From: Clostridia bacterium
Lineage (GTDB): Bacteria; Bacillota; Clostridia; Oscillospirales; Acutalibacteraceae
Reading direction: 5' to 3'
Length of the DNA: 54,747 nt
Assembly: GCA_017440965.1 (NCBI GenBank)
Contig: JAFSGH010000045.1
Coordinates: 1 to 54,747, forward strand
This document shows positions 34,252 through 52,302 of this stretch, piece by piece (within the stretch, counting starts at the first letter, position 1; each line of letters opens with the position of its first letter). The notes beneath the pieces were generated by a model. That model did not search any database. It saw nothing but the letters and a program-made list of their open reading frames with translations, and was not told the origin of the DNA. A program made the position numbers and the translations under genes.

Positions 34252-37200
34252 ATGGCTAAAAGAAAAGACATCAAAAAGATTATGATCATAGGCTCAGGCC
34301 CCATCGTCATCGGTCAGGCTGCCGAATTCGACTATGCGGGCACTCAGGCCTGCCTTGCTCTCAAGGAAGAAGGCTACGAGGTAGTTCTCTGCAACTCCAA
34401 CCCCGCAACCATTATGACCGACACGACAATTGCAGATAAGGTCTATATGGAGCCTCTTACTCTTGAATACATAGCAAAGATACTCCGTTACGAGCGTCCC
34501 GATGCTATCGTTCCCGGCATCGGCGGTCAGACAGGACTTAATCTTGCAATGCAGCTTGAAAAGAAGGGCGTTCTCAAGGAATGCGGCGTTGAGCTTCTCG
34601 GAACAAGCAGCGAAAGCATCGAAAGAGCTGAGGACAGAGAGCTTTTCAAGGAGCTTTGCCAGTCGATCGGCGAGCCCACCATCCCCTCTGAAATAACCTA
34701 CTCTCTTGAAGAAGCAAAGGAAGCAGCCGAAAGAATAGGCTATCCCGTTGTTCTTCGTCCCGCCTTCACTCTCGGCGGAACGGGCGGCGGCTTTGCATAT
34801 AACGAGGAGGATCTTATCGACATCGGAACAAACGCATTCAAGCTCTCCCCCGTTCATCAGGTCCTTATAGAAAAGAGCGTAAAGGGCTACAAGGAAATCG
34901 AATTTGAGGTTATGCGTGACGGAAGCGACCACGCGATCACCATCTGCGGCATGGAAAATATCGATCCCGTCGGCGTTCACACAGGTGACTCTCTTGTTGT
35001 TGCTCCCATTCTCACTCTCAGCGAGCATGATCACAAGATGCTCAATGACAGTGCTATAAAAATCATCCGTGAGCTTAAGATAGAAGGCGGCTGTAATGTT
35101 CAGTTTGCTCTCAATCCCGATTCAAGCGAATACTACCTCATCGAGGTAAACCCCAGAGTTTCCCGTTCCTCCGCACTTGCTTCAAAGGCAAGCGGATATC
35201 CCATAGCAAGAGTTACCGCAAAGATCGCCGTGGGAATGACTCTTGAGGAAATTGAAATTGCAAACACAACAGCGGCATTCGAGCCCAGACTCGACTATAT
35301 AGTAGCAAAGTTCCCCCGCTTCCCCTTCGACAAATTTGCAGGTGCTCCCAATACCCTCGGCACTCAGATGAAGGCTACGGGCGAGGTAATGGGCATAGGA
35401 ACAACTCTTGAAGAGTGCCTTCTTAAATCCGTGCGCTCCCTTGAAACAGGCGTCTGTCACTTCCATCTTGCAAAATTTGACAGTATGTCAACAGAGGGAA
35501 TATATGACTACATCAGGGAATTCAAGGATGACAATATCTTTGCCGTAGCAGAGCTTTTCAGAAGAGGCGAAACGGTAGTTAGCCTTCATAAGGCAACAGC
35601 CATCACGGCATATTTCCTTGAATCAATAAAGAAAATCGTTGATTTTGAAGCCCGCATCAAGGAAAACAAGGGCGATTTTGAAACACTGAAGGAAGCAAAA
35701 AAGATCGGCTTCTCCGATAAGATCATTGCAAGATTCTGGGGCATTCCCGAAACAGAGGTTTATGCAATGAGAAAGGCACACAACCTCTTCCCCGTATTCA
35801 AAATGGTAGACACCTGCCATACAAACGCATATATCCCCTATTTCTACTCCTCCTATTACGATGAAAATGCTTCAAGACTCACAGACAAGAAAAAGATTGT
35901 CGTTCTCGGCGCAGGTCCCATCCGTATCGGTCAGGGCGTTGAATTCGACTATTCCACCGTTCACGCCGTAACCACCATCAAAAAGTCAGGCTATGAAGCA
36001 ATTATCATAAACAACAACCCCGAAACAGTTTCAACCGACTACACAACAGCAGACAAGCTCTACTTTGAGCCTCTTACAACAGAGGATGTTATGAACATCC
36101 TTGAGTTTGAAAAGCCCGAAGGCGTTATCGCCTCTCTCGGCGGTCAGACAGCCATCAATCTTGCAGAGCCCTTAAGAGAAAGAGGCATCAAGATAATCGG
36201 CACAGACTGCGATGCTATCGAAAAGGCAGAAAACAGAGACAGCTTTGAAAAGATACTCAAGGAGCTCAACATTCCCCAGCCCAAGGGCAAGGCTGTTACA
36301 AAGATCGAGGACGGCGTTGCCGCTGCTGCGGAAATCGGCTATCCCGTGCTTGTGCGTCCCTCCTTCGTTCTCGGCGGAAGAGCTATGCAGATAGTTGCAA
36401 ACGAGGAGCAGCTCAGACACTATCTTAAGACAGCAGTTGAGATCGATGAGGACAAGCCCGTTCTTGTTGATAAATACATTCAGGGTAAAGAGGTCGAGGT
36501 CGATGCAATCTGCGACGGTATCGATGTATTCGTTCCCGGCATTATGGAGCTTATCGAAAGAACAGGTATCCATTCAGGTGACTCAATAAGCGTTTATCCC
36601 ACCTTCTCCGTTTCCGACAAGGTCAAGGGCACAATACTTCAGTATGCAAAGAAGCTCGGTCTCGGAATCGGCATCGTAGGTCTTTATAACATTCAGTTCA
36701 TCGTTGATGACAACGACGATGTGTATATCATCGAGGTAAATCCCCGTTCCTCCCGTACAGTTCCCTTCCTTTCAAAGGCTACAGGCTACTCACTTGCAGA
36801 TATCGCAACTGAAGTAATTATGGGCAAGACTCTCAAGGAGCAGGGCATATTCAGTATCTATCCCGACGAAAAGAAGAGATGGTATGTAAAGGTTCCCGTA
36901 TTCTCCTTCTCAAAGATAAGAGGTCTTGACGCCTACCTTTCTCCCGAAATGAAGTCTACAGGCGAAGCCATCGGTTATGACGATAAGCTCAACCGTGCTC
37001 TTTACAAGGCTCTGCAGGCAGGCGGAACAAAGCTTCAGAACTACGGCACCGTATTTGCTACCATTGCGGATAAGGACAAGGAGGAGGCACTTCCTCTTAT
37101 CAGACGCTTCTATAATCTCGGCTTCAATATTGAAGCAACAGAGGGTACTGCAAACTTCCTTAAGGCTCACGGCATAAGAACTCACGTTCACAAGAAGATA

Positions 37201-37425
37201 AGCGAGGGCAGCACCGAGATAATAGATGCTATCCGTCAGGGACACATCGCTTACGTTATCAATACAAGAGACATCGGCTCATCAGGTCCTATGAGCGACG
37301 GCCACGAGATAAGAAGATATGCAACAGACAACAACATCACACTCTTCACTGCTCTTGACACAGTAAGAGTTCTCCTCGATGTACTTGAAGAGACAACACT
37401 TTGCATATCCACTATAGATGCTTAA
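34252..37425 (+). CDS. carB: Carbamoyl-phosphate synthase large subunit
   Basis: CarB makes carbamoyl phosphate from bicarbonate, ammonia and two ATP. It has 1057 residues with the usual duplicated halves: each begins with an IxxxGxGPIxIGQ motif (near 13 and 557), followed by ATP-grasp domains. A C-terminal MGS-like regulatory domain spans about 935-1057. It normally needs CarA to deliver ammonia from glutamine, but no carA gene lies in this operon or anywhere in the window. Base composition and codon use match its neighbours. Confidence 0.97.
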   Translation: MAKRKDIKKIMIIGSGPIVIGQAAEFDYAGTQACLALKEEGYEVVLCNSNPATIMTDTTIADKVYMEPLTLEYIAKILRYERPDAIVPGIGGQTGLNLAMQLEKKGVLKECGVELLGTSSESIERAEDRELFKELCQSIGEPTIPSEITYSLEEAKEAAERIGYPVVLRPAFTLGGTGGGFAYNEEDLIDIGTNAFKLSPVHQVLIEKSVKGYKEIEFEVMRDGSDHAITICGMENIDPVGVHTGDSLVVAPILTLSEHDHKMLNDSAIKIIRELKIEGGCNVQFALNPDSSEYYLIEVNPRVSRSSALASKASGYPIARVTAKIAVGMTLEEIEIANTTAAFEPRLDYIVAKFPRFPFDKFAGAPNTLGTQMKATGEVMGIGTTLEECLLKSVRSLETGVCHFHLAKFDSMSTEGIYDYIREFKDDNIFAVAELFRRGETVVSLHKATAITAYFLESIKKIVDFEARIKENKGDFETLKEAKKIGFSDKIIARFWGIPETEVYAMRKAHNLFPVFKMVDTCHTNAYIPYFYSSYYDENASRLTDKKKIVVLGAGPIRIGQGVEFDYSTVHAVTTIKKSGYEAIIINNNPETVSTDYTTADKLYFEPLTTEDVMNILEFEKPEGVIASLGGQTAINLAEPLRERGIKIIGTDCDAIEKAENRDSFEKILKELNIPQPKGKAVTKIEDGVAAAAEIGYPVLVRPSFVLGGRAMQIVANEEQLRHYLKTAVEIDEDKPVLVDKYIQGKEVEVDAICDGIDVFVPGIMELIERTGIHSGDSISVYPTFSVSDKVKGTILQYAKKLGLGIGIVGLYNIQFIVDDNDDVYIIEVNPRSSRTVPFLSKATGYSLADIATEVIMGKTLKEQGIFSIYPDEKKRWYVKVPVFSFSKIRGLDAYLSPEMKSTGEAIGYDDKLNRALYKALQAGGTKLQNYGTVFATIADKDKEEALPLIRRFYNLGFNIEATEGTANFLKAHGIRTHVHKKISEGSTEIIDAIRQGHIAYVINTRDIGSSGPMSDGHEIRRYATDNNITLFTALDTVRVLLDVLEETTLCISTIDA

Positions 37426-41740: not shown

Positions 41741-42229
41741 ATGAAAAAAATCGGCATCGTAATGGGAAGCGACAGCGATCTCCCTATCATCAAAAAGGCT
41801 ACCGACACATTAAAAGAGCTGGATATACCCTTTGAGGTGCATATCTATTCCGCACACCGTACTCCCGAGGAAGCACGCGATTTCGCTTCCAATGCAAGAG
41901 AAAACGGCTTCGGAGCAATAATCGCGGCAGCAGGAATGGCAGCCCACCTTGCAGGCGCAATTGCTGCAAATACTACTCTTCCCGTTATAGGCATTCCCTG
42001 TAAGTCCTCCGTGCTTGACGGAATGGATGCTCTTCTTTCAACAGTAATGATGCCTTCCGGAATTCCCGTTGCAACAGTAGCAATTAACGGCGGTGCAAAC
42101 GCCGCTCTCTTAGCTGCTCAGATGCTTGCAATAGAGGACAAGGAACTTGCGAAAAAGCTTGACGGAAAAAGAAAAGCTGCTGCAAAGGTAGTTCTCGAAA
42201 AAGACAAAAATGTTCTTTCTCAGCTTTAA
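41741..42229 (+). CDS. purE: N5-carboxyaminoimidazole ribonucleotide mutase PurE
   Basis: PurE acts at the AIR-to-CAIR step of purine synthesis. It has 162 residues. GSDSDLP near 10, YSAHRTPE near 38, the GMAAHLAG loop near 66 and MPSGIPVATVAI near 105 are conserved. The longer open frame upstream runs through the riboswitch and is not real; this ATG has AAGGAGGT. No purK is near, so whether it uses N5-CAIR (class I) or CO2 directly cannot be settled from context. Confidence 0.94.
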   Translation: MKKIGIVMGSDSDLPIIKKATDTLKELDIPFEVHIYSAHRTPEEARDFASNARENGFGAIIAAAGMAAHLAGAIAANTTLPVIGIPCKSSVLDGMDALLSTVMMPSGIPVATVAINGGANAALLAAQMLAIEDKELAKKLDGKRKAAAKVVLEKDKNVLSQL

Positions 42230-42264: not shown

Positions 42265-43689
42265 ATGGGCGGATTTTTCGGTGCCGCTTGCAAAAGCGAT
42301 GCAATGAGTGATGTTTTCTTCGGAACAGACTATCATTCACATCTGGGCACAAAAAGTGCAGGCATGGCGGCATATGACAAAAAAATCGGTTTACAGAGAG
42401 TTATTCACAATATAAGAAACTCTCCTTTCAGAACAAAATTTGAGGATATATTCGATGAGATGGAAGGCTCCTCGGCAATCGGCTGTATCAATGACAGCGA
42501 GCCTCAGCCTCTTCTTATCCGTTCAAACCTCGGCACATATGCGATCTGCATTATCGGAATAATAAACAATGCAGATGCTCTCATAAAACAGTATCTTACA
42601 TTCTCAAGCGGTCACTTCGGAGCTATGACGGGCGGTGCTGTGAATTCCACAGAACTTGTAGCAGCTCTTATAAATCAGAAAAGTAATTTCGTTGAAGGCA
42701 TTACCTTCGCTCAGAATTCAATAGAGGGCACCGCAAATATCCTTATTCTCAAGGACGACGGAGCTATCATTGCGGCAAGAGATAAGATGGGAAGAATTCC
42801 CGTTATTCTCGGTAAAAGCGAGGACGGCTACTGTGCCGCCTTTGAGTCCTTTGCTTATAAAAAGCTCGGATATTCTGACTTCAGAGAATTAGGTCCCGGT
42901 GAGATAGTTGAAATCACTCCCGAAAAGGTCACAACACTCAGCGCGCCGAGAAAGGAAATGAGGATATGCTCATTCCTCTGGACCTATTACGGCTATTCCA
43001 CCTCCACCTATGAAGGAATAAATGTTGAGATGATGCGCTATAAAAACGGTGAGATACTTGCAAGAAACGATAAAGAGAACGATCTTTGCAAGGATATAGA
43101 CTATGTAGGCGGCGTTCCCGATTCAGGCACACCTCACGCAATCGGCTATGCAAATAAAAGCCATATCCCCTTTGCAAGACCGTTTATAAAATATACTCCT
43201 ACCTGGCCCAGAAGCTTTACCCCCTCAAACCAGAAGGAAAGAAACCGTATAGCAAAAATGAAGCAGATCCCCGTGCACGATCTTATAGAGGAAAAGAATC
43301 TGCTTTTTGTTGACGATTCGATAGTAAGAGGAACTCAGCTTCGTGAGACCGTTGATTTCCTTTATGATAACGGAGCAAAATCCGTTCATATGCGTTCAGC
43401 CTGTCCCCCTATTATGTACGGCTGTAAATTCCTTAATTTCTCAAGAGCCACAAACGATATGGAGCTTATAACAAGAACTACCATATTCGAGCTTGAGGGA
43501 GAAGAGGGCTTCAAATATCTTGAAGAATACGCCGATCCTACAACCGAAAGAGGAAAAAAATTAAGACAGACCATCAGCACCAAACTTCACTTTGCCTCTC
43601 TGGAATTCCAGACGCTTGAAGGACTTATTGAAGCTATAGGTATTCCGGCAGATAAGTTATGCACATACTGTTGGAACGGAAAAGAATAA
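42265..43689 (+). CDS. PurF-like amidophosphoribosyltransferase lacking glutaminase site
   Basis: This protein is homologous to PurF, which makes phosphoribosylamine from PRPP and ammonia. It has 474 residues. The PRPP loop is intact (LLFVDDSIVRGTQLRE near 350). Cysteines likely to hold a [4Fe-4S] cluster are present: ICSF near 232, YGCKF near 389, and CTYC near the C terminus. The N-terminal glutaminase-like domain is altered: the nucleophile Cys1 of CGVFG is Gly (MGGFFG), the HNGN oxyanion segment reads IIGI, and the TRYxT arginine segment is missing. It should not hydrolyse glutamine. Its place between purE and purM supports a role in step 1 with free ammonia or another donor, but a regulatory role is possible. 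Confidence 0.85.
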   Translation: MGGFFGAACKSDAMSDVFFGTDYHSHLGTKSAGMAAYDKKIGLQRVIHNIRNSPFRTKFEDIFDEMEGSSAIGCINDSEPQPLLIRSNLGTYAICIIGIINNADALIKQYLTFSSGHFGAMTGGAVNSTELVAALINQKSNFVEGITFAQNSIEGTANILILKDDGAIIAARDKMGRIPVILGKSEDGYCAAFESFAYKKLGYSDFRELGPGEIVEITPEKVTTLSAPRKEMRICSFLWTYYGYSTSTYEGINVEMMRYKNGEILARNDKENDLCKDIDYVGGVPDSGTPHAIGYANKSHIPFARPFIKYTPTWPRSFTPSNQKERNRIAKMKQIPVHDLIEEKNLLFVDDSIVRGTQLRETVDFLYDNGAKSVHMRSACPPIMYGCKFLNFSRATNDMELITRTTIFELEGEEGFKYLEEYADPTTERGKKLRQTISTKLHFASLEFQTLEGLIEAIGIPADKLCTYCWNGKE

Positions 43690-43708: not shown

Positions 43709-44761
43709 ATGGATCACAAGAATTCCTTTTCTGCAAGCTATGCAGCTGCAGGTGTAGATATCACTGCCGGTTACAAATCGGTTGAGCTTATGAAAAAGCA
43801 CGTAGCAAGAACCCGTAACGAGGGCTGTATTGACGAGGTAGGCGGCTTCGGCGGCTGCTTCGATCTCAGCTGTATCGCAGGTATGGAGCATCCCGTTACC
43901 GTTTCGGGAACTGACGGCTGCGGCACAAAGGTAAAATTAGCTATTCTTATGGATAAGCACGACACCATCGGCATTGATGCAGTTGCAATGTGCGTAAATG
44001 ACATCATCTGCGTAGGCGCAAAGCCCTTATTCTTCCTTGATTATATCGCCTGCGGCAAGAATGTTCCCGAAAAAATTGCCGAAATCGTCGGCGGTGTTGC
44101 AGAGGGCTGTGTTCAGTCAGGTGCCGCACTTATCGGCGGAGAAACGGCTGAGCATCCCGGACTTATGCCCGAGGAGGATTATGACCTCGCAGGCTTCGCA
44201 GTAGGTGTTGTAGACAAGCCTAAGATGATAGACAACAGCAAAATGGCTGCAGGAGATGTTGTTATCGCTCTTCCTTCAACGGGTATTCATTCCAACGGCT
44301 TCAGCCTCTGCCGTAAGGTATTTGATATCGACAACAACAATCCCGAGCTTTATGTTCCCAGAGAAGAGCTTGGCGGAAAGAGCATTGCCGAGGCACTTCT
44401 CGTTCCCACAAAGATTTATGTAAAGCCCGTTCTCGCACTTATCGAAAAGGTAAATGTTAAGGGCATTTCCCATATTACCGGCGGCGGCTTCTATGAAAAT
44501 ATACCGCGTTCTATCCCCGACGGTCTTTGCGCAAAGATCGACAAAGCCGCTGTAAAGGTGCTTCCCATCTTTGATGTAATTGCAAAATGGGGCAACATTC
44601 CCGAAAGAGATATGTATAACACATATAATATGGGTGTCGGCATGAGCATTGTTGTACCTGCTGATGAAGTTGAGACTTCCCTTTCGGTTCTCAAGGAAAA
44701 CGGCATCGACGCCTATGTTATCGGTGAGATCATCGAGGGCGAAGAGAAGGTGCTTTTATAA
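43709..44761 (+). CDS. purM: AIR synthetase PurM
   Basis: PurM (phosphoribosylformylglycinamidine cyclo-ligase) closes the imidazole ring to form AIR. It has 350 residues. GTDGCGTKVKLA near 70, AMCVNDI near 92, and the GGETAEHPGLM block near 145 are conserved. GISHITGGGFYENIPR near 253 completes the set. purN begins in its stop codon (TAATG). Confidence 0.95.
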   Translation: MDHKNSFSASYAAAGVDITAGYKSVELMKKHVARTRNEGCIDEVGGFGGCFDLSCIAGMEHPVTVSGTDGCGTKVKLAILMDKHDTIGIDAVAMCVNDIICVGAKPLFFLDYIACGKNVPEKIAEIVGGVAEGCVQSGAALIGGETAEHPGLMPEEDYDLAGFAVGVVDKPKMIDNSKMAAGDVVIALPSTGIHSNGFSLCRKVFDIDNNNPELYVPREELGGKSIAEALLVPTKIYVKPVLALIEKVNVKGISHITGGGFYENIPRSIPDGLCAKIDKAAVKVLPIFDVIAKWGNIPERDMYNTYNMGVGMSIVVPADEVETSLSVLKENGIDAYVIGEIIEGEEKVLL

Positions 44762-45387
44762 TGAGTAAGAGAATTGCAGTTCTTGTATCAGGAGGCGGAA
44801 CAAATCTTCAGGCTCTTATTGATGCAGAAAAAAGAGGAGAGCTCGGTAACGGTAAAATAACCTGCGTTATTTCATCAAAAAAGGATGCCTATGCCCTCCT
44901 GAGAGCAGAAGAAAACGGAATAAAAACAAGAACGCTCATAAGAAAGGACTATGCCGATATTTCTTCATACAGCATAGCAATGAGAGATATTCTTCTTGAA
45001 GAAAAAGCAGACTTAATAGTATATGCAGGCTTTATGACAATACTTGACGAAAATGTCTGTGATACCTTCAGAAATAAAATGATAAATGTGCATCCCGCAC
45101 TTATCCCCTCCTTCTGCGGCAAAGGCTATTACGGACTTCACGTTCACGAGGAGGCACTGAAAAAGGGTGTCAAGGTCTCAGGAGCTACGGTACATTTCGT
45201 AACGGCTGAATGCGATGCAGGTCCCATAATCCTCCAGAAGGCAGTTGAGGTTATGGAGGATGACACACCCGAAGCATTACAGAAAAGAATAATGGAGCAG
45301 GCAGAGTGGAAGATACTTCCGAAGGCCGTTCAGCTTTTCTGCGATGACAGAATTACAGTAGAAAACAATAAAACCTATATAAAATAA
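44761..45387 (+). CDS. purN: GAR transformylase PurN
   Basis: PurN formylates GAR using 10-formyl-THF (step 3). It has 208 residues. Catalytic Asn and His are in INVHPALIPSF near 114, and the catalytic Asp in AECDAGPI near 153. LVSGGGTNLQALIDA at the N terminus is typical. The active-site neighbour CGKGYYGLHVHE replaces the more common PGLDAHE form, a variant seen in some Clostridia. It starts within the purM stop. Confidence 0.95.
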   Translation: MSKRIAVLVSGGGTNLQALIDAEKRGELGNGKITCVISSKKDAYALLRAEENGIKTRTLIRKDYADISSYSIAMRDILLEEKADLIVYAGFMTILDENVCDTFRNKMINVHPALIPSFCGKGYYGLHVHEEALKKGVKVSGATVHFVTAECDAGPIILQKAVEVMEDDTPEALQKRIMEQAEWKILPKAVQLFCDDRITVENNKTYIK

Positions 45388-45402: not shown

Positions 45403-46119
45403 ATGGAAATAAAGACACTTGAAAATGAGCTTAATTCACTCCCTTATCACGGAAGAGGAATAATCATCGGAAAGAGCGCTGACGGCAAGAAGGCTGTTAC
45501 CGCATATTTTATTATGGGCAGAAGCGTCAACAGCCGTAACAGAGTTTTTGTTGCCGAAGGAGAGGCAATGAGAACAAAGGCATTTGACGAATCAAAAATG
45601 ACCGATCCCCATCTTATAATTTATTATCCCGTAAGAGTTTTAGGTAATAAAACCATCGTTACAAACGGTGATCAGACAGATACCATATATGAGCTTATGG
45701 ATAAGCAGATGACCTTTGAGCAGGCTCTTCGCACCCGTGAATTCGAGGATGATGCACCCAATTACACACCCCGTATTTCAGGAATCATTCACCACGAAAA
45801 GGGCGAGATGAACTTTGCTATGTCCATTCTCAAGTCAGCAGACGGAGACGGAAGCTCCTGTCAGAGATATACATTTGCTTATAATGATCCTCTTGCAGGT
45901 AAGGCAAAGTTTATCCATACATATAAATGTGACGGAAATCCCCTTCCCAGCTTTGAAGGAGAGCCCAAAACACTTGAGCTTCCCGACACAGACATTGACA
46001 CACTTACTGACATCATCTGGACAAACCTCAATGAGGACAACAAGGTATCTCTTTTCGTAAGATATATTGACCTTGTCAGCGGAGAGACAGAAACCAGAAT
46101 AGTAAATAAAAACGTATAA
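45403..46119 (+). CDS. IMP cyclohydrolase, PurO-like
   Basis: This 238-residue protein resembles PurO (PF07826), the archaeal IMP cyclohydrolase that closes FAICAR to IMP. Shared features are GRGIIIGKSADGKKAVTAYF, RSVNSRNRVF and TNGDQTDTIYE near 88. SGIIHHEKGEMNFAMSIL lies near 126. It sits immediately before AICAR transformylase, so together the two replace bifunctional PurH. The N-terminal domain of ordinary PurH (MGS-like fold) is absent from the window. Confidence in the family is good; catalytic activity is inferred. Confidence 0.85.
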   Translation: MEIKTLENELNSLPYHGRGIIIGKSADGKKAVTAYFIMGRSVNSRNRVFVAEGEAMRTKAFDESKMTDPHLIIYYPVRVLGNKTIVTNGDQTDTIYELMDKQMTFEQALRTREFEDDAPNYTPRISGIIHHEKGEMNFAMSILKSADGDGSSCQRYTFAYNDPLAGKAKFIHTYKCDGNPLPSFEGEPKTLELPDTDIDTLTDIIWTNLNEDNKVSLFVRYIDLVSGETETRIVNKNV

Positions 46120-46130
46120 GGAGATCTGAA

Positions 46131-47315
46131 ATGAAAGAGTTTGAACTTAAATACGGCTGCAACCCCAATCAGAAGCCTTCAAAAATTTTTATGGATAACG
46201 GAAACGACCTTCCTATTGAAATTTTAAGCGGCAGACCCGGATATATCAATTTCCTTGATGCCTTCAATTCCTGGCAGCTTGTAAAGGAGCTCAAGGAGGC
46301 AACCGGTCTTCCTGCGGTAACATCCTTCAAGCATGTAAGCCCCACATCCGCCGCTGTCGGAATAAAGCTTTCCGATACTCTCAAAAAGGCCTGCTTTGTT
46401 GATGATATTGAAGGCCTTGATGAAAGTCCCCTTGCCTGTGCATACGCAAGAGCAAGAGGCACAGACAGAATGTGCTCCTTCGGTGACTGGGTAGCTCTTT
46501 CCGATGTCTGCGATGTTACAACTGCTCTTCTTATAAAGAGAGAGGTTTCCGACGGTGTTATCGCTCCCGGCTATGAGCCCGAAGCACTTGAGATATTAAG
46601 ATCCAAGAGAAAGGGCAACTACAATATAGTAAAGATCGATCCCGACTATGTACCCGAGGAAATCGAAAGAAAGCATGTTTTCGGTATCACCTTCGAGCAG
46701 GGCAGAAACAATTATAAGATAGATGCATCTCTTCTTAATAATATCGTAACTGCAAATAAGGATATTCCCGAGGCAGCCGCAAGAGATCTTGTTATTTCTC
46801 TTATTACTCTTAAATATACACAGTCAAATTCCGTCTGCTATGCTTTTGACGGTCAGGCAATAGGTGTAGGTGCAGGTCAGCAGTCAAGAATTCACTGCAC
46901 ACGTCTTGCAGGCACGAAGGCCGACACATGGTTTTTGCGTCAGCACGAAAAGGTACTGAACCTCCCCTTCAAACCTGAGATCGGCAGACCTGACCGCGAT
47001 AACGTAATTGACGGCTATATCAATAAAAATGAAGAGGATGTCTGTGCAGACGGCAACTGGCAGAAATACTTTACCTCTCAGCCCGAGCCCTTTACCGAAG
47101 AAGAAATGAGAGCCTTCCTTGACTCCCGCGACGGTGTTGCTTTAGGCTCCGATGCCTTCTTCCCCTTCTCAGATAACATTGAAAGAGCAAAAAAGAGCGG
47201 TGTAAAGTATGTAGTACAGCCCGGTGGCTCCATCCGTGACGATCTTGTTATCGAATGTGCCGACAAATACGGTATGGCTATGGCATTCACCGGAATGCGT
47301 TTATTCCACCATTAA
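46131..47315 (+). CDS. AICAR transformylase (stand-alone)
   Basis: This 394-residue protein corresponds to the AICAR formyltransferase half of PurH (PF01808) without the IMP cyclohydrolase domain. It formylates AICAR with 10-formyl-THF (step 9). LKYGCNPNQKPS at the start, the catalytic Lys-His in SFKHVSPTSAAV near 66, and RARGTDRMCSFGDW near 107 are conserved. DGVIAPGYEPEA near 140 and NSVCYAFDGQAIGVGAGQQS near 238 complete the set. It is 12 bases after the PurO-like gene. Its substrate AICAR is the ribonucleotide (ZMP) sensed by the operon's riboswitch. Confidence 0.92.
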   Translation: MKEFELKYGCNPNQKPSKIFMDNGNDLPIEILSGRPGYINFLDAFNSWQLVKELKEATGLPAVTSFKHVSPTSAAVGIKLSDTLKKACFVDDIEGLDESPLACAYARARGTDRMCSFGDWVALSDVCDVTTALLIKREVSDGVIAPGYEPEALEILRSKRKGNYNIVKIDPDYVPEEIERKHVFGITFEQGRNNYKIDASLLNNIVTANKDIPEAAARDLVISLITLKYTQSNSVCYAFDGQAIGVGAGQQSRIHCTRLAGTKADTWFLRQHEKVLNLPFKPEIGRPDRDNVIDGYINKNEEDVCADGNWQKYFTSQPEPFTEEEMRAFLDSRDGVALGSDAFFPFSDNIERAKKSGVKYVVQPGGSIRDDLVIECADKYGMAMAFTGMRLFHH

Positions 47316-47331
47316 TTAACGGAGATCAAAA

Positions 47332-48594
47332 ATGAAAATAATGGTTGTAGGCGGTGGCGGAAGAGAACACGCCATCATAAAAAAAATCAAAGAGAATCCC
47401 GATGTGACCGAGATTTTTGCACTTCCCGGAAACGGCGGTATTGCAAAGGATGCTACCTGCATCAATATAGGAGCTACCGATATTAAGGCTATAGCTGAAT
47501 TTGCCAAGGAAAACGGCATCGATTATGCTGTTGTTGCTCCCGATGATCCTCTGGTGCTCGGCTGTGTTGACGAGCTTCAGGCACTGGGCATTCCATGCTT
47601 TGGTCCCAATGCTGCTGCGGCAATAATCGAGGGAAGCAAGGTATTTTCCAAAAACCTTATGAAAAAATACAATATCCCCACAGCAAAATATGAGGTCTTC
47701 AGCGATATGGAGAAGGCACTCGCCTATCTTGACACAGCTCCCATTCCCACAGTTATCAAGGCTGACGGACTTGCTCTCGGCAAGGGTGTTATCATTGCCT
47801 TTACTCTTGAAGAGGCAAAGGCAGCGGTAAGATCTATGATGCTTGATAAGGCATTCGGAAAAAGCGGTGACAATATAGTTATCGAGGAATTCCTTGAGGG
47901 TCCCGAGGTATCCGTGCTTGCCTTTACCGACGGAAAAACCGTTGCTCCTATGGTATCTTCTATGGATCACAAGAGAGCAGGCGACGGTGATACCGGTCTT
48001 AATACAGGCGGTATGGGCACAATTGCCCCCAATCCCTACTATACAGAGGATGTTGCAAAGAGATGCATGGAGGAGATATTCCTTCCCACCATCAAGGCCA
48101 TGAATAATGAAGGCAGAACCTTCAAGGGCTGTCTTTATTTCGGACTTATGATAACCAAGGACGGTCCTAAGGTCATCGAATATAACTGCCGCTTCGGTGA
48201 TCCCGAGACTCAGGTAGTGCTTCCCCTTCTTGAAAGCGACCTTCTCACAATAATGAAGGCTGTCACGGAAGAAAAGCTTTCCGAAACAGAGGTTAAATTC
48301 TCTGACAAAAGTGCCTGCTGTGTAATTACAGCATCAAAGGGCTACCCTTCAGCATATGAAAAAGGCTTCCCTATCACATTTACGGATGAAGCACTTGAGG
48401 CTACCTTTGTAGCAGGTGCTAAGCAGGAAAACGGAAGGCTTGTTACCTGGGGCGGTAGAGTTACAGGCACGACTGCTGTTGCTGATTCTCTTGAAGAAGC
48501 AATAAAGGAGGCTTACCGTCTTTCCGACGGTGTATGCTTTGAAGGTGCTTACCGCAGATCAGATATCGGCAAGAGAGCCCTTCAGGCTAAATGA
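47332..48594 (+). CDS. purD: GAR synthetase PurD
   Basis: PurD joins glycine to phosphoribosylamine (step 2) with ATP. It has 420 residues and an ATP-grasp fold. VVGGGGREHAI at the N terminus, IKADGLALGKGV near 143, and the DHKRAGDGDTGLNTGGMG block near 208 are conserved. YNCRFGDPETQ near 285 is the metal-binding end of the grasp. It directly follows AICAR transformylase. Confidence 0.96.
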   Translation: MKIMVVGGGGREHAIIKKIKENPDVTEIFALPGNGGIAKDATCINIGATDIKAIAEFAKENGIDYAVVAPDDPLVLGCVDELQALGIPCFGPNAAAAIIEGSKVFSKNLMKKYNIPTAKYEVFSDMEKALAYLDTAPIPTVIKADGLALGKGVIIAFTLEEAKAAVRSMMLDKAFGKSGDNIVIEEFLEGPEVSVLAFTDGKTVAPMVSSMDHKRAGDGDTGLNTGGMGTIAPNPYYTEDVAKRCMEEIFLPTIKAMNNEGRTFKGCLYFGLMITKDGPKVIEYNCRFGDPETQVVLPLLESDLLTIMKAVTEEKLSETEVKFSDKSACCVITASKGYPSAYEKGFPITFTDEALEATFVAGAKQENGRLVTWGGRVTGTTAVADSLEEAIKEAYRLSDGVCFEGAYRRSDIGKRALQAK

Positions 48595-48612: not shown

Positions 48613-51600
48613 ATGGTTTATCGTATATTTGTAGAAAAGAAGGCGGGACTTGATAACGAAGCAAAGGGACTTCTGGGTGAAGCAAAAAACCTGCTCGGTA
48701 TTGAAAGCTTAGAGGATATCCGTCTTTTTAACCGCTACGATGCAGAAAATATATCAGAGGAATTATTTGATTACGCTGTAAAAACTGTTTTCTCAGAGCC
48801 TCAGCTTGATAATGCTACCGACTCTGTTGAGATCGGTAATGCATATGTTTTTGCAGTTGAAGCTCTCCCCGGTCAGTTCGATCAGAGAGCAGACTCTGCG
48901 GCACAGTGTATTCAGATCATCTCTCAGGGCGAGCGTCCTCTTATCCGCACGGCAAAGGTATATGCACTTTTCGGAAATCTCAGCGAAAAGGATATCGAGG
49001 CCTTCAAGCATCACGTTATAAATGCAGTTGAAAGCCGTGAGGCAGCTCTCGAAAAGCCCGAAACACTCACTATAAACTATGCCGCTCCCGAAAAGGTCGA
49101 CACAGTAACAGGCTTTATCGCAATGGATGAAAAGGCTCTTTCCGAGCTTCTTGACGAAAAGGGACTTGCTATGGACCTTGACGATCTCAAGTTCCTGCAG
49201 GCATACTTCAGAGATACAGAGCGCAGAGATCCCACAATTACAGAGATCCGTGTTGTTGACACCTATTGGTCTGACCATTGCCGTCACACTACCTTCTCTA
49301 CACATATTGACAATGTCCGCATTGACGATCCCGCTGTTGCCGAGGCTTATAAGCGTTATCTTGCCGCAAGAACTGAGGTATACGGCGAGGAAAAGGCGGC
49401 AAAGCGCCCTCAGACTCTTATGGATATTGCCACCATCGGCACAAAAACTCTCAAAAAGCGCGGTCTTCTTCCCGAGCTTGACGAGAGTGAAGAGATCAAT
49501 GCCTGCTCAATTCATGTTACGGCTACCGTAAACGGTGAGGATCAGGACTGGCTTTTGATGTTCAAGAACGAAACTCACAACCATCCCACAGAAATTGAGC
49601 CCTTCGGCGGTGCAGCTACCTGTATCGGCGGATGTATCCGAGATCCTCTTTCAGGCCGTGCCTATGTTCATCAGGCTATGCGTGTAACAGGTGCAGGCGA
49701 CCCCAGAAAAACTATTGCAGAAACCCTATCGGGAAAGCTTCCTCAGAGAAAGATATGTCAGACAGCTGCGGCAGGCTATTCCTCCTACGGTAATCAGATA
49801 GGTCTTGCAACAGGACATGTTGCAGAGATATACCACGAGGGCTTTGTTGCAAAGCGTCTTGAGTGCGGTGCCGTTGTTGCCGCCGCTCCCGCTTATAATG
49901 TACGCCGTGAGCGTCCCGAGCCCGGTGACATAATCGTGCTTCTCGGCGGACGCACGGGCCGTGACGGTATCGGCGGTGCTACAGGCTCATCAAAGAGCCA
50001 TAATATGAAATCTCTTACCACTATGGCATCAGAGGTTCAGAAGGGTAACGCACCCGAGGAAAGAAAGATACAGAGACTTTTCAGAAATTCCGAGGTCACC
50101 CGTCTTATAAAGCGCTGTAATGACTTTGGTGCAGGCGGTGTATCCGTTGCTATCGGTGAGCTTGCTCCCGGTCTTCAGATCGACCTTGATGCAGTTCGTA
50201 AAAAGTATGAAGGTCTTGACGGCACGGAAATTGCTATTTCCGAATCTCAGGAGCGTATGGCTGTTGTCGTAGCCGCTGAGGATGCTGATAAATTTATAGA
50301 ATATGCCGAAAAGGAAAACCTTGAAGCCTACCGCGTTGCAGTCGTAACAAAGGAAGAGCGTATGGTTATGAAATGGAAGGGCAATGTAATTGCCGACCTC
50401 AGCCGCGAATTCCTTGACACAAACGGTGCTGTGAAACACGCCGATGTTGCTGTAACAAAGAAGGATCTTTCCGTTTTAAGTAAGGCTATATTCGGCTCAT
50501 TGAAGGAAATGGCTTCCGATCTTCGTACAGCAAGCAGAAGAGGTCTTGTTGAACGCTTTGACTCAACTATCGGTGCCGGCAGTATCACAATGCCCTACGG
50601 CGGAAAGCGTCAGCGTACACCCGCTCAGTCTATGGCTGCAGTATTACCCGTTCTTCCCGGTCAGGAAACAGATGCCGCAAGCGTATTCAGCTGGGGCTGT
50701 GATCCCGATCACCTTTCCGTTGATCCCTATACAGGTGCACACGCATCAATATATAATTCTGTGGCAAAGCTTGTTGCCGCAGGCTGCGATTACAAAAAAG
50801 CATATCTTACTCTTCAGGAGTTCTTTGAAAAGCTCAAGACAGAGCCCGAGCGTTGGGGCAAGCCCTTTGCCGCTCTCTTAGGTGCTCTTGATGCTCAGCT
50901 TGAATTAGGCGCTGCCGCAATCGGCGGTAAGGACTCAATGTCAGGAAGCTTCCTTGACAAGGATGTTCCTCCCACGCTTATCTCCTTTGCTATTGCTCCC
51001 ATTAAAAAGCAGGATGTTATCACTCCCGAATTCAAAAATGCAGGAGATCCCGTATATGTATTCGGCTCCAAGGATGAAAGCGCCGAAAGCCTTAAATCTA
51101 CCTGGGAAGCATTCCACGAGCTTTGCAGATCCGGCAAGGTAAAGGCATCCTGGGCAGTTGAACACGGCATTGCTGAAGCTGTTATGAATATGTCCTTCGG
51201 TAACAATATCGGCTTTACCGCTTCAAAGGATCTTAAGGAAAACTGGCATCTCGGTATGTGGGGCTTCATTGTTGCCGAGCTTACAGAGGATGTAGATATT
51301 CCCGGTGTAATGAAGATAGGTACTACATCTGAAGATGCAGTTATCGATCTTATAGGCGATAAGGCTGATATCGATGAGCTTTATAAACTGAACTGTGCTA
51401 CACTTGAGGATGTATATCCCACCAAGGCAAAAGCCGATAAGAGCGTAATTCCCACCTACTCCTATGAAGGAAAGTGCAGTGCTTCTCCCAAGAATAAGGT
51501 TGCCCGTCCCAAGGTGCTTATCCCCGTATTCCCCGGCACAAACTGCGAATACGATTCAGCAAGAGCAGTTGAAAAGGCAGGCGGCGAAGCAGAGATATTT

Positions 51601-52302
51601 GTAATCAGAAACCTTACCGCAGAGGATGTAGCAAAGAGCGTTGAAAGCTTCTCGGCAAAAGTCAGAGAAAGCCAGATAATCTTCATCCCCGGAGGCTTCT
51701 CAGGCGGTGACGAGCCCGACGGCTCAGCAAAGTTCATTACGGCATTTTTCCGTAATCCCAAGGTAAAGGAAGCTGTGACCGATCTTCTTGACAACCGTGA
51801 CGGTCTTATGTGCGGTATCTGTAACGGCTTCCAGGCTCTTATCAAGCTCGGTCTTGTTCCCTACGGAAAGATCATTGATACTGATGAAGCCTGCCCCACT
51901 CTTACCTTCAATAATATTAACCGTCATCAGAGCAGAATAGTTCACACCCGCATCGCATCCGTAAAATCTCCCTGGCTCAACCTTATGAATGTGGGCGATA
52001 TAGTTAATGTTCCTATTTCTCACGGTGAAGGTAAATTCCTTGCTTCTAAGGAGCTTATAGAAAAGCTGGCAGAAAACGGACAGATCGCAACTCAGTATGT
52101 TGATCTTGAAGGCAATGCAACAAGCGATATCGACTTTAACCCCAACGGCTCAATTTGTGCGGTTGAAGGTATCACCTCCCCCGACGGCAGAGTCTTCGGC
52201 AAGATGGGACATTCGGAAAGAATCGGCGACGGTCTTTATAAGAATGTACCCGGTGAATATGATATAAAGATGTTCAAGGCTGCAATCGAGTATTTTAAAT
52301 AA
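48613..52302 (+). CDS. purL: FGAM synthase PurL, single chain
   Basis: This enzyme converts FGAR to FGAM using glutamine and ATP (step 4). It has 1229 residues and is the one-chain form common in Clostridia, not the PurSQL type. An N-terminal PurS-like part precedes the linker with [13 protein letters not shown] near 217 and the two AIRS-type halves ([20 protein letters not shown] near 317). The C-terminal glutamine amidotransferase has [10 protein letters not shown] near 976, the catalytic Cys in GICNGFQA near 1073, and His-Glu in SHGEGKF near 1136. Unlike the PurF-like protein of this operon, its glutaminase site is intact. Confidence 0.96.

Follow-up and report, generated by a model that had tools for sequence, protein, structure and literature searches.

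The window, a stretch of 54,747 nucleotides from contig JAFSGH010000045.1 of a Clostridia bacterium genome (GCA_017440965.1, referred to below as G000), carries on its forward strand a purine biosynthesis cluster headed by a ZMP/ZTP riboswitch. The riboswitch (RF01750, 41608–41692) scores 62.7 bits against an Rfam gathering threshold of 39 and lies ahead of purE (41741–42229), which matches TIGR01162 and PF00731 over their cut-offs and has its ATG start within a longer ORF. Between purE and purM lies an ORF encoding a PurF homologue of 474 amino acids that lacks a glutaminase (42265–43689). It is followed on the same strand by purM (43709–44761; TIGR00878), purN (44761–45387; TIGR00639), a PurO-like IMP cyclohydrolase (45403–46119; PF07826), a stand-alone AICAR transformylase (46131–47315; NF005492), purD (47332–48594; TIGR00877) and a large purL (48613–52302; TIGR01857), each identified by a profile match over its cut-off. 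Over 45403–47315, IMP synthesis is divided between a PurO cyclohydrolase of archaeal type and the stand-alone AICAR transformylase, in place of the bifunctional PurH. When read for glutaminase motifs, PurL proved to keep its own glutaminase, with the CGICNGFQ cysteine and the SHGEG motif. An earlier note on this DNA had described a complete-looking purine operon. The description holds for purE, the PurF-like gene, purM, purN, the cyclohydrolase, the transformylase, purD and purL but not for purC, which is absent from the operon; a different contig carries a purC-like gene, whose 145 bits fall short of the family cut-off of 190. Also on the forward strand, a full-length carB (34252–37425), encoding the carbamoyl-phosphate synthetase large subunit and identified by TIGR01369 over cut-off and by its Pfam domains, sits in a pyrimidine cluster between pyrC and pyrK without an adjoining carA.

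The PurF-like protein was identified from its ORF, a profile match, a structure-database match and residue alignment. The ATG start has a Shine-Dalgarno-like AAGGAGG just upstream. Against the purF profile TIGR01134 the protein scores 166 bits and does not reach the curated cut-off of 350, and its best solved relatives are the Bacillus subtilis PurF structures, with 1ao0 at an E-value of 2.4e-37. The Pfam family GATase_7 (PF13537) matches at 26.9 bits (cut-off 25), over residues 76–189 only. The former glutaminase domain covers about residues 1–228 (42265–42948), and the phosphoribosyltransferase (PRTase) domain, which holds the Fe-S cysteines, about residues 229–474 (42949–43686), with the PRPP loop DDSIVRGT at residues 350–357 (43312–43335).

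Residues lost and retained in the PurF-like protein

In a common alignment with Escherichia coli PurF, the catalytic residues of the glutaminase domain are replaced or deleted. Cys1 corresponds to Gly2 of the window protein, Arg26 to Leu27, Asp29 to Lys30, Asn101 to Ile97 and Asp127 to Ser128, and Arg73, Tyr74 and Thr76 fall in a gap; Gly102 is kept as Gly98. Arg73, Asn101 and Asp127 are glutamine-pocket positions of PurF. The PRPP loop reads DDSIVRGTQ, and C235, C387, C466 and C469 align with the four Fe-S cysteines of the B. subtilis enzyme. The earlier note had read from the letters that the N-terminal Cys had become Gly, that the Arg segment (TRYxT) was missing, that the HNGN and DSE sites were lost and that the PRPP loop and the likely iron-sulfur cysteines were kept, and the alignment agrees with it on all of these points.

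The same pattern recurs throughout the relatives. Residues were counted in 151 distinct frames collected without a start filter, using the anchors D-Y-HSHLG and DDSIVRG, and compared with 42 canonical rows. Because Arg26 and the PRPP loop are tied to these anchors, they were counted instead in 130 distinct relatives chosen by BLAST and the start motif M-G/S-G, a filter that favours the Cys1 result and a set that omits 17 relatives and 5 rows called canonical. In the unfiltered count, the Cys1 position is Gly in 148 relatives, Ser in 2 and a gap at a contig edge in 1, while it is Cys in 42/42 canonical rows. Arg73, Tyr74 and Thr76 are deleted in 151/151, Asn101 is replaced by Ile, Val, Thr or Leu in 151/151, and Asp127 is replaced in 150/151, the window included. 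The four Fe-S cysteines are present in all 151. In the start-filtered set, Arg26 is Leu in 130/130, and the PRPP loop retains D, D, S, V, R, G and T in 130/130 and I (Ile369) in 128/130. Asp366, Asp367, Arg371, Gly372 and Thr373, together with Arg332 of the catalytic loop, are likewise found in 130/130, and the last Thr of the PRPP loop is replaced by Gln (Gln358 in window numbering) in every one of these relatives. The catalytic loop itself is family-specific, reading KYTPTWPRSF where the canonical enzyme reads KNRYVGRTF, with Y310, T311, P312, W314 and S317 as its distinctive residues. Based on these alignments, the window protein is homologous to PurF, with the glutaminase pocket lost and the PRTase site and the four Fe-S cysteines kept.

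A sequencing error at the N terminus, which the earlier note had named as a possible source of the pattern, or a wrongly placed start does not explain these losses, because the 151 distinct frames collected without a start filter show them as well. The ribosome-binding site is good, and no Cys is correctly placed among the 34 in-frame codons upstream of the window ATG.

Although it has been emptied of catalytic residues, the N-terminal domain is under strong purifying selection and shows no decay. Comparison of the window with its sister species gives a dN/dS of 0.021 in the N-domain against 0.048 in the PRTase domain (NG86, at a dS near 1.4, which is close to saturation). When identity in the N-domain is divided by that in the PRTase domain, the ratio is 0.907 for the PurF-like family and 0.921 for canonical PurF. 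D22, H24, L27, H48, F55 and R56 are invariant in the PurF-like family and different in canonical PurF, and Y23 and D77 are also invariant or nearly so where canonical PurF has other residues. In a quick tree with SH-aLRT support only and the long-branched E. coli sequence as outgroup, a fully supported branch (100%) separates 22 relatives from the 42 canonical rows that remained after a GlmS-like neighbour (from locus L081) had been removed. The stem of the PurF-like clade is long, at 4.38 changes per column. The sequences indicate that the PurF-like form is a large, old family and not a one-off.

Compared with canonical PurF (EC 2.4.2.14; B. subtilis 1ao0/1gph and the E. coli 1ecb group), the family shows both shared and differing features. 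The two-domain layout, the PRPP loop, Lys326, Arg332 and Tyr258 (E. coli numbers), Fe-S cysteines of the B. subtilis type and the setting in a purine operon are common to both. In contrast, the family is without the catalytic glutaminase residues, its catalytic loop is remodelled, it forms a separate long-branch clade, and the window protein scores less than half of the 350 bits set for the canonical model.

Distribution, gene neighbourhood and genomes without canonical PurF

In a class sample of 293 genomes that includes G000, the PurF-like form was found in 85, of which 58 also carry canonical PurF, 26 do not, and the last is the window's own genome, also without it. Canonical PurF alone occurs in 172 genomes and neither form in 36, with four partial canonical matches below cut-off scored as canonical. 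In a phylum sample, 18/299 genomes carry the PurF-like form, G000 among them. The samples hold one genome per species. Their genomes are related, which means that these counts are not independent, and the incompleteness of metagenome-assembled genomes (MAGs) applies to them. A scan of GTDB gave at least 597 matches. The best 80 of these are mostly MAGs with titles such as Clostridia bacterium or Oscillospiraceae bacterium, many of them naming animal gut samples, and the named strains among the 80 include Evtepia gabavorous, Criibacterium bergeronii, Levyella massiliensis, Flavonifractor sp. An112 and Adlercreutzia equolifaciens. One locus, that from Adlercreutzia, lies outside the phylum.

Gene neighbourhoods were compared in the 80 closest loci from GTDB and 40 chosen loci, a selection that leans to close relatives. 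A purine gene lies on the same strand within four ORFs of the PurF-like gene in 90/119 distinct loci, and none was seen beside it in the other 29. Many close relatives have the order purE, purC, PurF-like gene, purM, purN, and purC was confirmed directly upstream of the PurF-like gene in G331, G363 and G211. A canonical purF directly adjoins the PurF-like gene on the same strand in 14 listed loci, or in 7/119 by a stricter motif count; in L099, the neighbour first taken for a canonical purF resembles an AsnB-type protein. Among the neighbours in the compared loci, no unexplained gene recurred as a possible partner. Neighbour clusters c2, c3 and c8 look like frames antisense to other genes, and cluster c4 is a formate/nitrite transporter. 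A gene of this transporter family lies between purM and purN in eight loci (L107, L140, L153, L157, L163, L167, L172 and L177; one member was scanned), where it could perhaps supply formate for formyl-folate. In L081, from genome G020, which is without canonical PurF and without a CarA match, a GlmS-like gene stands directly before the PurF-like gene.

No canonical PurF over the TIGR01134 cut-off was found in 49 genomes that carry the PurF-like form. Within the window's family, 23/23 members chosen as apparently PurF-like-only gave no purF match over cut-off, 14 of these genomes being at least 90% complete. Across the class, the same was true of 26/27 members chosen likewise; the exception, G139, has a canonical PurF that appears in the search as two fragments, and it was counted as having both forms. 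The earlier note had proposed searching the rest of the genome for a canonical PurF, and the search of G000 gave none. G000 is 86% complete, but incompleteness does not account for the result, as its sister species G366 (97% complete) and G211, a single contig of 1.67 Mb that is 99% complete, also carry the PurF-like form only. A hidden second PurF of glutaminase type was considered from matches to profile positions 1–221 in PurF-like-only genomes, and the two that were read (L200 and L204) are GlmS by NCBIfam. In G000 and G366 the search with the purF model gives no second match, and the same search picks up GlmS in some relatives.

The enzymes that act around the first step are present in these genomes. 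PurM is over cut-off in 48/48 tested PurF-like-only genomes and in G139. PurD is over cut-off in 44/48, or 45/49 when G139 is included; three of the misses are in genomes that are 72 to 91% complete and without a purD-sized match, and the fourth is a partial gene.

Carbamoyl-phosphate synthetase without CarA

CarA is the glutaminase subunit of the first enzyme of pyrimidine synthesis. A CarA search of the window's genome gave no match, and CarA over cut-off is absent in 15/28 tested PurF-like-only genomes (the window and 14/27 others), 5 of the 15 having weak partial matches. Within the class sample, CarA occurs in 11/26 PurF-like-only genomes (G171 and ten others), 55/58 genomes with both PurF forms, 130/172 with canonical PurF only and 4/36 with neither. 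The Fisher p-values for the PurF-like-only genomes, which are not corrected for kinship, are 2.6e-7 against those with both forms and 9.6e-4 against those with canonical PurF only. Contrasts are also seen within genera. G009 has both PurF forms and CarA, whereas G042 has the PurF-like form only and is without CarA; similarly, G167 has both forms and CarA, whereas G132, G218 and G279 have the PurF-like form only and are without CarA. The loss of CarA is no clean marker, however, because 11/26 PurF-like-only genomes keep it and 42/172 canonical-only genomes are without it.

CarB was seen in 18/21 CarA-less PurF-like-only genomes, a count in which the G366 copy is cut by the end of the locus and which leaves out G020 (CarB in two pieces), G085 and G211. 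A quick tree built from 34 CarB rows places the CarA-less ones in two clades, one of 13 rows and one of 7, each with 100% SH-aLRT support. The 13-row clade holds the window and is nested in a clade that also contains four relatives with CarA, which makes a loss of CarA in this lineage probable. In the 7-row clade, carB lies close to the PurF-like gene. G132 and G167 have it directly upstream, G279 has it upstream at a distance of about 1.3 kb, and in G191 and G201 it stands one ORF away from the PurF-like gene and on the opposite strand. Such proximity outside a purine cluster was seen in 3/20 loci of one set and 2/8 of another, in families f10 and f51 only. Canonical purF, in turn, stands beside carA-carB in G195, G037, G167 and G178, four loci that were picked for close listed coordinates; of 10 carA loci that were fetched, canonical purF adjoins in 4 and not in the other 6. 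The single-contig genome G167 holds both arrangements, with purF, carA and carB together in one place and a second carB together with the PurF-like gene in another.

A predicted ammonia-dependent first step

The loss of the pocket, the conservation of the PRTase site, the status of the protein as sole PurF in 49 genomes, the operon context and the absence of CarA are read from sequence, and the chemistry, the ammonia source and the role of the N-terminal domain proposed here are inferred. In the window organism, the PurF-like protein is likely to carry out the first step of purine synthesis, making phosphoribosylamine from PRPP and free ammonia. PRPP would bind in an ordinary PurF phosphoribosyltransferase site and react with free cellular NH3 to give 5-phosphoribosylamine, the substrate for PurD, and nitrogen from glutamine would not be accepted. 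The former glutaminase domain would be retained as a conserved structural, gating or regulatory domain. The ammonia reading draws independent support from CarA, which is missing in 15/28 of the tested PurF-like-only genomes. The retention of CarB without CarA makes it probable that free ammonia also feeds carbamoyl-phosphate synthetase in some of these organisms. On the other side, the window PurL and the GlmS of the two relatives that were read keep their glutaminases, so that glutamine is used elsewhere in metabolism.

There are precedents or comparable systems for parts of this proposal. Replacement of Cys1 in E. coli PurF abolishes activity with glutamine, but the enzyme can still use ammonia (Mei and Zalkin, 1989, as cited in PMC3261824), and the same is predicted for the PurF-like family, which would be a permanent, natural version of that state. 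The E. coli protein is a laboratory mutant, whereas in the natural family the loss extends to the entire pocket and the domain has continued to evolve. Yeast PPAT is described as using ambient NH3 (PMC12017579). In Methanocorpusculum labreanum, the PurF homologue Mlab_0150 has Ser at the active-site Cys and in this resembles the PurF-like family, but it is described as the product of a fairly recent duplication in a single archaeon, which possesses a normal PurF as well (PMC3261824). Carbamoyl-phosphate synthetase I is, like the proposed enzyme, an ammonia-only member of a glutamine-using enzyme family; the analogy is one of working and not of kinship, as it is an unrelated urea-cycle enzyme that needs N-acetylglutamate (PMC6022934). 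A search of the open-licence literature found no paper on a glutaminase-less PurF family or on a CarA-less CarB in Clostridia.

Besides free ammonia, which is now the best supported of its suggestions, the earlier note had offered another donor protein or a regulatory or differently acting paralogue. A separate glutaminase might dock on the N-terminal domain and hand over ammonia, as in CarA-CarB or PurQ-PurL. This domain is too well conserved for a mere scaffold and therefore leaves room for a partner, its residues D22, Y23, H24, H48, R56 and D77 are family-specific, and in L081 a GlmS-like gene directly precedes the PurF-like gene. No donor candidate emerges among the recurring neighbours, however, the second TIGR01134 matches read in two PurF-like-only genomes are both GlmS and not of PurF type, and CarA, an obvious type of donor, is itself missing in more than half of the genomes tested for it, all of which makes a docking glutaminase unlikely.

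That the protein is instead a regulatory or structural partner of canonical PurF would fit the loci in which the two genes directly adjoin on the same strand, but it is highly improbable given the 49 genomes in which the PurF-like form occurs without canonical PurF over cut-off, and given the conservation of the PRPP site. The altered catalytic loop could point to a nucleophile other than NH3, and hence to another PRPP-dependent reaction. The family-specific loop residues, the Gln in place of the last PRPP-loop Thr and the 29/119 loci with no purine gene seen beside the PurF-like gene agree with such a change. Against it, in most of the close relatives compared the gene occupies the purF position, after purE or purC and before purM, and genomes with PurD and PurM would otherwise have nothing to fill step 1; a different reaction is thus quite improbable. 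The ammonia-dependent reaction remains the preferred reading.

A broader version of the ammonia reading is evenly balanced between being right and wrong. It holds that a set of anaerobic gut bacteria runs both purine and pyrimidine entry on free ammonia, that the second carB and the PurF-like gene form an 'ammonia module' that can be kept beside a purF-carA-carB 'glutamine module', as in G167, and that the glutamine enzymes have been lost from relatives within the genus.

In standard teaching, glutamine is required for the committed step of purine synthesis. If the ammonia reading is true, nucleotide synthesis in many gut Clostridia would depend directly on the surrounding ammonia, and the PurF-like enzyme should resist glutamine analogues. 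Annotation pipelines or metabolic models that require canonical PurF would call these gut bacteria purine auxotrophs or insert a glutamine reaction in its place. The family also provides a natural case of an enzyme in which one of two active sites has been lost while the emptied domain stays under strong selection.
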